Shown in pieces: positions 15,265 to 18,899 of a stretch of DNA of 58,399 nt. The stretch is from Porticoccaceae bacterium (GTDB lineage: Bacteria; Pseudomonadota; Gammaproteobacteria; Pseudomonadales; Porticoccaceae). The translations under genes and the position numbers were made by a program. The first letter of the stretch is position 1. Every line of letters starts with the position of its first letter. Location: positions 1 through 58,399 of the forward strand of contig JABJEX010000069.1 in NCBI GenBank assembly GCA_018663035.1, read 5' to 3'. The notes under the pieces are model-generated. The model was given only the letters and a program-made list of their open reading frames with translations. It made no database searches and was not told the DNA's origin.

Positions 15265-16446
15265 ATGAAAGAAGCAGTAATCGTTTCAGCCGCTCGAACC
15301 CCAATTGGTAGAGCATTTCGCGGTGCATTCAATGATCTTGAGTCACCCTCTATGAGTTCTCATGCCATAACCGCAGCTGTCGCTCGCGCTGGTGTTGATC
15401 CAGCTGAGATCGAAGACTGCATTATGGGTGCAGCGATGCAACAGGGTACTCAGACCATGAATCTGGGTCGCCAAGCGGCTTTGGCAGCTGGCCTGCCTGT
15501 CTCTGTTTCTGGTATGACGGTTGACCGACAGTGCTCTTCTGGCCTGATGGCTATCTCTATCGGAGCCAATAATATTACTAATGATGGTTCTCAGGTGATT
15601 GTTGCCGGTGGCTGTGAAAGTATCAGCCTGATTCAAAACGAAAAGTTTAATGCCCATCGTGTAGCGGATCCGCTGGCCATGAAGCATGCGCCGCTTATTC
15701 ATATGCCTATGTTGGATACAGCTGAGACTGTGGCCAAGCGATACAATATCTCTCGTGAGGTTCAGGATGAGTACGCGGTGATTTCTCAAGCGCGCACCGC
15801 AGCGGCTCAGCAAGCGGGTTATTTTGCCGACGAAATTGTACCAGTGACGGCGACAAAGCTGGTGACCAACCGTGAAACCGGTGAAGTTAGCAAGGAAGAG
15901 GTAACCCTGTCCCTAGATGAGGGCAACCGTCCAGGTACTTCTTTAGAGAACCTGCAGGGTCTCAAGCCAGTGCGTGATGGCGGCTGTATTACTGCTGGTA
16001 ATGCCTCTCAGCTTTCTGATGGTGCGGCTGCAGTCGTTCTTATGGAGGGTACACTGGCATCACAGCGCAATTTGGAGCCGCTCGGTGTGTATCGTGGTAT
16101 GGCAGTTGCAGGCTGTGAGCCAGATGAAATGGGTATTGGCCCAGTGTTTGCTATACCTAAGCTTTTGCAGCGTCATGGCTTAAAGATGGATGATATCGGC
16201 CTTTGGGAACTAAACGAAGCCTTTGCAGTGCAGGTCCTGTACTGCCGTGACAAGCTAGGTATTCCCATGGAGCGACTGAATGTCAACGGCGGCTCGATCT
16301 CAATTGGCCACCCATTTGGTATGAGTGGTGCGCGTATGGTGATGCACGCCTTGATGGAAGGTAAGCGTCGCGGTGAAAAGTATGTGGTTATTACCATGTG
16401 TGTTGGTGGCGGTATGGGTGCTGCTGGCCTATTCGAGGTTCTGTAG
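15265..16446 (+). CDS. Thiolase (acetyl-CoA C-acyltransferase)
   Basis: Thiolase of 393 residues that cleaves 3-ketoacyl-CoA with CoA to acetyl-CoA plus a shortened acyl-CoA. The acyl-accepting C90 lies in V-D-R-Q-C-S-S-G-L. The other family motifs are [19 protein letters not shown] with the catalytic histidine, and the second cysteine in M-C-V-G-G-G-M-G. Length matches degradative and biosynthetic thiolases (390-400). It is the third gene of the MaoC/SDR operon, with AAGGATAA before the start and a terminator 29 bp after the stop. That places it in degradation of the same substrate rather than in polyester synthesis, for which no phaB/phaC neighbour is seen. Confidence 0.92.
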
Positions 16447-16474
16447 GGCACAGTTCAGTCCTGTAGGTAATCTT

Positions 16475-16510
16475 AACGCCATCGATTCTCTTCAGGGTCG
16501 GTGGCGTTTT
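16475..16510 (+). terminator. Rho-independent terminator after the thiolase operon
   Basis: AACGCCATCGA (16475-16485) and TCGGTGGCGTT (16498-16508) form an 11-bp stem with one G-U pair and a 12-nt loop. TTTACATTT follows. It closes the MaoC/SDR/thiolase operon. Confidence 0.85.
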
Positions 16511-16544
16511 ACATTTAGGCTGTAAATAATTTGGACAACAACTA

Positions 16545-16863
16545 ATGAGAGCCGATAGCCATCAAAATGATCTGTTTAGGGTTATCCAAGAATCGCCATG
16601 GTTTTTATCCGCTTAGGGTGCGTCTGGCAGGGCGTCTGCTGAGTTTAATTGGTGACTATGGTGTCACCACTGATGAGGGTACCTATCTCGATGTACAGCT
16701 CAGTCAGAATGACTTTGCGCGCCTCTGCTTGGGGTCGCGGCAACGAATAAATAAAATCTTTCGCCAGTGGACTGAGCAGGGTATCTTAGAGATGCAGGCT
16801 GACCGCTACATGATTTTTGATGTGACTGCCCTGCAGCGAGAGATTAGCCTCGAAGAACTATAA
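16545..16863 (+). pseudogene. Crp/Fnr-family regulator with internal deletion (sensor domain lost)
   Basis: Two pieces of a Crp/Fnr-type regulator lie back to back in different frames. From ATG at 16545 the frame reads 23 residues ending Q-E-S-P-W-F-L-S-A before TAG (16614-16616). S-P-W-F is typical of the first helix of this family. From about 16600 the other frame reads P-L-R-V-R-L-A-G-R-L-L-S-L, then L-S-Q-N-D-F-A-R-L-C-L-G-S-R-Q-R-I-N-K, the Crp-type winged helix-turn-helix, ending at 16863. The roughly 140-residue cyclic-nucleotide-type sensor domain and dimer helix are missing. The second piece has an ATG at 16567 but no good ribosome site. It could still be made as a 98-residue DNA-binding fragment, but a broken gene is the simpler reading. 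Confidence 0.65.
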
Positions 16864-16880
16864 ATAATATCAGGGGTAGT

Positions 16881-18899
16881 ATGAAAAGCTTACAGACTTG
16901 CCAGTTTAACTCAATCTCATCTGGGCTGAGTGCAATACTCATTGCTGCGCTGTTGCTGTCCGGTTGTGACAGGCCCAACGAGCTGACGTTATCTCCCGCC
17001 GCATCTGAGAGCAATAGTAAAGCTGCAAGTGCCTTTACCATTGCCCATAACCAAGACTTCGTTAAAGATCTGGATCTCGATGATCAGCAAGATTTTGAGG
17101 ACGCTATGCGCGGCATGCTGGCAGCGGCACCCAACGAGGCGGTGTTCAGTGAGTCTGGTGTGCAGGTCTGGGATGCAGGCGCCTACGACTTTATTAATGG
17201 CCCGGCGCCCGACACAGTAAATCCCAGCCTTTGGCGGCAGGCTAAGCTAAACAATATTCGCGGTCTCTTCGAGGTTGCTCCGGGCATCTACCAGCTGCGT
17301 GGTTTTGATCTTGCCAATAGCACATTGATTAGGGGAGAGACAGGTTGGATCTTGGTGGACCCATTGACAACACTTGAAACCACCGAGTCGGCTATGGCGT
17401 TTGCCGAGCAGCACCTAGGCAAAATAAATCTTAGTGGCATCATTTTTACCCATAGTCATATCGATCATTTTGGTGGCGTACTGGCGTTGATTAACGCCGA
17501 ACAAGCGGCGGCTAATAAGGTGCCTATTATTGCTCCTTCCGGCTTTATGGCTGAGTCTACCAGTGAAAACATTATTGCTGGGCCCGCAATGACCCGGCGT
17601 GGCAGCTATATGTTTGGCAATGGACTGGAGCGCTCTGTTACAGGCCATGTCGATACTGGCCTCGGCAAACAGGTTGTCTATGGCAGCACGTCTATTCTCC
17701 AGCCGACGGTGGTTATAGACCGTCCCGAAAGCTCAATGACCATAGATGGCGTAGCCTTTGATTTTTTCAATATGCCCGGCTCAGAAGCGCCAGCGGAATT
17801 GACTTTTTATCTGCCCCAGCACCGAGCATTCTGTGGTGCCGAGGTGCTCTCTCATGTGATGCACAATGTGTTGACTCTGCGCGGTGCCAAGGTGCGTGAT
17901 GCGCTACTATGGAGCGACTATATTGGCCAATCTATTGAGCGCTTAGATGATGTGGAGATCTTTTTTAATAGTCACCATTGGCCAACCTGGGGGCACGAGC
18001 GCATCATTACACAGATGCAACAACAGCAGGATATGTACAAGTTTATCCATGATCAGACAGTGCGGCTGGCCAATTATGGCTATACCCCCAGAGAGATCGC
18101 CGAAAAGCTTCAGTTACCCAAGAGTCTAGCTGGTAACTTTCATCTCAGGGGTTATTACGGCACCCTCAGTCACAACAGTAAGGCGGTTTATCAGCATTAT
18201 TTTGGCTGGTATGAAGGCAATCCGGCACAGCTCAACCCATTGCCGCCCGAAGAGTCTGCGCGGCGTTATGTGGAGTTTATGGGGGGCTCCAAAGCCATAC
18301 TTGAGCGAGTGGCGCTATCGATACAGCGTGGAGAGTATCGCTGGGTTGCCGAGGTGCTAAATAAGGTGGTTTTTGCTGAGCCGGATAATACCGCGGCAAA
18401 GTTACAGCTAGCTGAGGCTTATCGCCAGCTGGGCTATCAGGCTGAATCTGGGCCCTGGCGAGATATCTATCTCTCCGCGGCAATTGAGCTGACTGAAGAG
18501 AGGTCCAGAGGATATTACGACCCAGTATTTGCCAAAGCATTTCTACAGCAGGTGCCACTCGACCAATTTATGAAGGCTCTGACTGTACGTCTGGACGCTG
18601 ATAAGGCCGACTCAGAGACCATGGTGCTAAATGTATTGTTTACTGAGCAGCAGAAGAACTATGTGCTGACTTTGCGTAACTCGGTGCTTCATTATCAGCA
18701 AAAGCCGCCCAGAGCCGATGCCGATGTGAGCCTTGCCCTTAGTAAGCGGCTATTTGTGGATATATTGATTGGTCAGGTATCGGCGCCTCAGCTGATAACC
18801 AGTGATGAGATTGAGGTTGATGGCAGTGTATTAAAATTACTGAAGTTCTTTTCATTGTTAGGGGGCAGCAATGATAACTTCAATATAGTCACCCCCTAA
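16881..18899 (+). CDS. Alkylsulfatase, metallo-beta-lactamase fold, lipoprotein
   Basis: Type III alkylsulfatase of the SdsA1/YjcS family, cleaving linear primary alkyl sulfates such as dodecyl sulfate to alcohol plus sulfate. Of its 672 residues, the first part is a signal with lipobox L-L-S-G-C; the cysteine is near residue 29, which implies a lipid anchor. The metal motif is T-H-S-H-I-D-H with H191, H193, D195 and H196. Later come A-E-V-L-S-H-V-M-H-N and H-H-W-P-T-W-G. The central dimerisation region (R-Y-V-E-F-M-G-G) and C-terminal SCP2-like domain are present, and the length fits the family. AGGGG precedes ATG. The released alcohol could feed the beta-oxidation genes nearby. Confidence 0.9.
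   Translation: MKSLQTCQFNSISSGLSAILIAALLLSGCDRPNELTLSPAASESNSKAASAFTIAHNQDFVKDLDLDDQQDFEDAMRGMLAAAPNEAVFSESGVQVWDAGAYDFINGPAPDTVNPSLWRQAKLNNIRGLFEVAPGIYQLRGFDLANSTLIRGETGWILVDPLTTLETTESAMAFAEQHLGKINLSGIIFTHSHIDHFGGVLALINAEQAAANKVPIIAPSGFMAESTSENIIAGPAMTRRGSYMFGNGLERSVTGHVDTGLGKQVVYGSTSILQPTVVIDRPESSMTIDGVAFDFFNMPGSEAPAELTFYLPQHRAFCGAEVLSHVMHNVLTLRGAKVRDALLWSDYIGQSIERLDDVEIFFNSHHWPTWGHERIITQMQQQQDMYKFIHDQTVRLANYGYTPREIAEKLQLPKSLAGNFHLRGYYGTLSHNSKAVYQHYFGWYEGNPAQLNPLPPEESARRYVEFMGGSKAILERVALSIQRGEYRWVAEVLNKVVFAEPDNTAAKLQLAEAYRQLGYQAESGPWRDIYLSAAIELTEERSRGYYDPVFAKAFLQQVPLDQFMKALTVRLDADKADSETMVLNVLFTEQQKNYVLTLRNSVLHYQQKPPRADADVSLALSKRLFVDILIGQVSAPQLITSDEIEVDGSVLKLLKFFSLLGGSNDNFNIVTP

Follow-up and report, generated by a model that had tools for sequence, protein, structure and literature searches.

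Remnant of a Crp/Fnr-family regulator gene upstream of an alkylsulfatase in a marine Porticoccaceae bacterium and the repeated loss of the gene within the genus

The window, which is the whole stretch of 58,399 nucleotides analysed (contig JABJEX010000069.1 of a Porticoccaceae bacterium), contains at positions 16545-16863 what appears to be a pseudogene. Both ends of a Crp/Fnr-family regulator gene of about 237 codons seem to be joined there by an out-of-frame internal deletion; we put the probability of this reading at about 0.88. The frame is disrupted when compared with the intact orthologues found at this locus, and eroded copies lie at the same place in five other genomes. The kind of event, a pseudogene in erosion, is well known; the series in this genus is neat and clear. 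The window is part of one draft genome of 2.0 Mb in 104 contigs, which also holds L011 and L012, two other Crp/Fnr-type genes with about 230-243 codons.

Results

Composition of the remnant

The features of the region, all on the + strand, are as follows.

15265..16446, +, thiolase family enzyme (Thiolase_N, Thiolase_C), intact, upstream neighbour
16475..16508, +, terminator-like stem that follows the thiolase gene (15 pairs, 7 of them G-C)
16545..16616, +, 5' remnant of 23 codons that includes the original start codon and the first helix and stops at a frame-shifted TAG
16567..16863, +, winged helix-turn-helix remnant in a 98-codon open frame (HTH_Crp_2; profile match)
16596..16606, +, deletion junction carrying CCATGGTTT, placed by sequence comparison
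16618..16860, +, part modelled as a Crp-type winged helix, with 81 residues when translated from the GTG that lies one base past the TAG
16881..18899, +, alkylsulfatase of the metallo-beta-lactamase type, intact, downstream neighbour (Alkyl_sulf_dimr E 1.7e-58, Alkyl_sulf_C E 9.1e-30)

The preliminary description had placed a regulator remnant at 16545-16863, with a first helix and a complete Crp-type winged helix-turn-helix in different frames. These coordinates are correct, and the two frames and the domain are confirmed by Pfam and by a profile built from 13 full-length relatives. Frame A runs from ATG 16545 to TAG 16614-16616 and its 23 codons read MRADSHQNDLFRVIQESPWFLSA. It matches profile positions 1-24 with 8 bits (E 0.014), which is weak alone, and the 23-residue piece by itself has no Pfam match. 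The W-F pair lies at the same distance from the start in frame A as in the full-length protein of G006. The remnant in another genome, G021, begins similarly (profile 4-34, E 1.4e-5), which backs the N-terminal piece of the window. Frame B runs from ATG 16567 to TAA 16861-16863 and has 98 codons. It matches profile positions 152-233 with 135 bits (E 1.8e-41), and its residues 19-91 are assigned to HTH_Crp_2 (E 3.3e-10; 40.2 bits, with the cut-off at 27). From 16600 onward the regulator sequence is encoded in the next frame relative to frame A.

A model of the 81 residues read from the GTG has a mean pLDDT of 82.5, and its top structural matches are Crp C-terminal domains. The best superposition is on Gardnerella Crp (7ets_B, Z 13.6, 77 residues, 1.2 A), and the modelled domain also superposes on the C-terminal domains of GlxR, M. 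tuberculosis CRP and NtcA with Z of about 11 to 13. Unlike these regulators, the window copy has neither a sensor barrel nor a dimer helix, and a Pfam scan finds no sensor domain of the cNMP-binding type in it.

Sequence comparison indicates that about residues 21-151 of the full-length protein are missing, which shortens the gene by about 395 bp net (131 codons plus two bases). The sensor domain is gone, as was claimed earlier, but the loss amounts to about 131 residues and not about 140. The deletion removes the whole sensor barrel, apparently of the nucleotide-binding type, and the predicted dimerization helix. The model of the full-length G006 protein predicts a long helix at 127-152, then a helix at 155-170, with the winged-helix domain beginning at 155. 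In the Crp/Fnr family the helix at the position of 127-152 makes the dimer. The window sequence resumes at residue 152 and helix 127-152 is absent. The string CCATGGTTT at the junction is also found on the N side in G058 and on the C side in G059, and the T run at the junction differs from G059 by one base. Slippage between short repeats is a plausible cause of the deletion, if the sequences of these relatives can stand in for the ancestor's letters.

The terminator scan returns two sites against 0.4 expected. The one other than the stem after the thiolase gene is a weaker stem within the remnant, at 16625-16641 (7 pairs, 3 of them G-C), and is probably due to chance.

Full-length orthologues and former context

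A search of 50 genomes of the genus (SAR92/HTCC2207 clade; HTCC2207 is a member of SAR92) with the full-length G006 protein as query finds a full-length orthologue in four: G006 itself, G014 (85% identity), G058 (62%) and G059 (57%). Same-locus remnants aside, the remaining matches have at most 26% identity and are taken as different Crp-type genes. Both cNMP_binding and HTH_Crp_2 are present in all four full-length proteins scanned (G006, G058, G059 and one more distant relative), and the G006 protein matches GlxR chain 3r6s with E 5e-15.

All four full-length copies occur in the same cluster of MaoC, SDR, thiolase, second SDR, regulator and alkylsulfatase, except that the thiolase is a remnant and the alkylsulfatase is truncated in G058, and the second SDR is absent in G014. 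The preliminary description had named the lack of a full-length version in related genomes as part of what would speak against it. The opposite is found: the gene lies exactly between thiolase and alkylsulfatase in G014, and with one extra SDR in G006 and G059. The regulator gene of the window once stood in a lipid-degradation-type cluster with the order MaoC, SDR, thiolase, possibly a second SDR, regulator, alkylsulfatase and hydrolase, and it probably controlled part of this cluster.

That it once controlled one of its neighbours, as suggested earlier, is plausible but unproven, since G058 keeps the regulator though its thiolase and alkylsulfatase are remnants. The target of the G058 regulator may be a different gene, perhaps the second SDR next to it. 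By eye, no operator motif is shared by the inverted repeats around the gene starts of 13 relatives and the window, 14 in all. Among eight distant relatives (L096-L103), the start of an MFS transporter gene lies within 0.3 kb of the regulator in four and within 3.2 kb in six; in L103 an SDR and a thiolase are also found within about 5 kb of it.

Erosion of the regulator across the genus

An alkylsulfatase-like match is present in 35 of the 50 genomes, and the upstream region is readable at 33 loci. The two left out are G044, where the contig starts inside the gene, and G060, where the match has 27% identity and is taken as another gene; the other 15 genomes are without the locus. The profile was run on six frames of the 33 gaps and of four further gaps. 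Accepted matches have E below 0.02, compared with 0.43 for the best match on the opposite strand and 3.9 for the next on the + strand. The 33 loci comprise four with a full-length gene, six with a remnant (the window included) and 23 without a detectable trace. The remnants retain the following profile positions.

Window: 1-24 and 152-233
G003: 159-233
G057: 191-234
G043: 192-230
G021: 4-34, 118-137 and 209-233, in three frames
G042: 205-233, the weakest match (E 0.007)

The arginine of the recognition helix, which probably corresponds to a residue of E. coli CRP that contacts DNA, is replaced by W in G003 and by L in G043, and is therefore lost in two of the four remnants that cover this helix. 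G021 keeps residues 118-137, which are lost in the window, and has lost 138-208, a stretch largely present in the window. Since each retains what the other has lost, neither deletion derives from the other.

A tree of thiolase and alkylsulfatase was built from 32 rows of the genus and one outgroup, leaving out G058 for too few residues. The best tree implies eight losses of the regulator, or three if only well-supported branches are kept, on the assumption of ancestral presence and irreversible loss; several deep forks of this tree are weak and the outgroup branch is long. A tree of the winged-helix region places the G057 remnant with the full-length G058 and L095 copies (starred) and the G003 and G043 remnants with G006 and G014 (82/85, not starred), which fits vertical inheritance. 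Loss of this regulator recurs within the genus, and the window copy would be one recent step in it.

L095, which groups with G058 and G057, is a full-length orthologue on a contig labelled Rhodobacteraceae (NAT686). The bin may be mislabelled or mixed, or the gene may have been transferred.

The gap between thiolase and alkylsulfatase also carries, in four genomes, a common GC-rich element of about 100 bp that looks like a dispersed repeat. Its 23-base core is exact in four of 112 loci and is absent from the window at up to three mismatches. The core is located as follows.

L023:1132-1154
L025:2374-2396
L026:171-193
L042:2325-2347

Discussion

Condition of the open fragment and alternative explanations

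The 98-codon frame is open and undamaged, and the sequence that it encodes is well kept. The fragment retains 20 of the 21 residues that are invariant in the full-length relatives (columns with at least 8 of 9 rows filled). When the full-length copies are left out in turn, the result is 21 of 21 for six of nine copies, and 21 of 24, 18 of 20 and 20 of 25 for the remaining three, so the fragment is no worse than the full-length copies at these columns. Pairwise dN/dS is uninformative here, as 12 of 15 pairs show saturation at synonymous sites. A branch codon model gives an omega of 0.087 overall and 0.038 on the window branch against 0.093, which is not a significant difference (2 delta lnL 0.69). 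On the window branch, a neutral phase as long as about 0.1 substitutions per site is not rejected (lnL drop 1.2), while one of 0.17 is rejected (drop 3.4). Since synonymous sites are saturated, the codon model mainly reflects the period that preceded the deletion, and these values set only a weak upper bound. The simplest reading is that the deletion is fairly recent and that the winged helix-turn-helix may stay open only because further damage has yet to land.

The same conservation could be expected if the winged helix were translated alone and, as a monomer or a weak competitor, occupied the former operator, which would put the alkylsulfatase under constitutive control. Translation would begin at ATG 16567 or, through re-initiation, at the GTG at 16618 that lies one base past the TAG. 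The predicted Crp-type fold (pLDDT 82.5) and the stop codon, with 17 bases between it and the alkylsulfatase ATG, are in keeping with such a product; however, the fragment no longer has the helix that occupies the dimer-helix position, and PMC6659574 reports monomeric FNR to be inactive for DNA binding. By eye, neither start is preceded by a well-placed Shine-Dalgarno-like site. An intact stand-alone winged helix is found in none of the five other remnants, as G003 and G043 carry W and L in place of the recognition-helix arginine, G021 is split over three frames and G057, G043 and G042 are without the first part, and 23 of the 33 alkylsulfatase loci have no detectable piece at all. A working mini-regulator is therefore very unlikely, and the constitutive or dominant fragment envisaged in the preliminary description is not supported. 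It is highly improbable, too, that translation of a sensor-less and dimer-less regulator makes the repeated loss of the sensor in the genus partly a change from sensed to fixed control of the alkylsulfatase before the gene disappears.

The gene's 3' end might instead be kept as DNA, serving as leader, promoter or translational-coupling sequence of the alkylsulfatase rather than as protein. The wing end beside the alkylsulfatase is retained in all six remnants, while a 5' end with the N-terminal helix is detectable in two (window and G021) and residues 35-117 in none. This bias can arise because the alkylsulfatase start adjoins, where deletions may cost more, and because weaker conservation and poorer detectability of the N-terminal region bias the count of surviving 5' ends; no selection on the fragment is needed. 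The thiolase genes eroded in G058 and G061 likewise survive as 3' tails, so the pattern is not special to the regulator. The 23 loci without detectable regulator sequence upstream of the alkylsulfatase also count against such a role, as does a scan for one promoter type, which finds no + strand promoter-like site in 16380-16960 and a single match, on the - strand, with 0.7 expected from chance alone. A role of this kind is unlikely. Collapse of a full-length gene by the assembler might be suspected in a draft of 104 contigs whose junction string is present at both ends in relatives. However, the shared string is only about 9 bases, usual assembly k-mers are far longer, and the five other genomes have eroded copies at the same place, which makes an artefact extremely improbable. 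A pseudogene formed by internal deletion is the best explanation of the region.

Relation to known systems

This pseudogene series resembles the graded erosion of Rickettsia pseudogenes, for which PMC2374718 describes a long frame in one species that corresponds to short fragments in others. It differs in that the genus is free-living and marine and that the scale is that of a single gene. Strain LSUCC0057 appears to belong to the same SAR92 clade as the genus of the window, and its automatic annotation reports 6 pseudogenes, according to PMC6588378. Short remnants like those described here are probably missed by such annotation. The portion of the open-access literature that was searched, on the Crp/Fnr sensor, dimer helix and DNA-binding domain, SAR92, HTCC2207, alkyl sulfatase and pseudogenes, yielded nothing on this gene.

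Taken alone, the window copy would be a dead gene, but with the copies in related genomes it forms a clear natural series, in a free-living marine genus, of a regulator lost repeatedly where the neighbouring alkylsulfatase persists. If the alkylsulfatase is constitutive where the regulator is gone, the series could provide a test case for oligotrophic marine bacteria shedding regulation before function.

Erosion at the locus also extends to the neighbouring genes. In G058 (L076), where the regulator is intact, only the last 36 codons of the thiolase and roughly the first 90 of the alkylsulfatase remain. G061 (L039) is left with almost the same tail of the thiolase (residues 358 to 392 or 393), perhaps as a result of one shared deletion, and the two genomes are adjacent (91/90) in a MaoC-SDR tree that took 16 of 34 rows.
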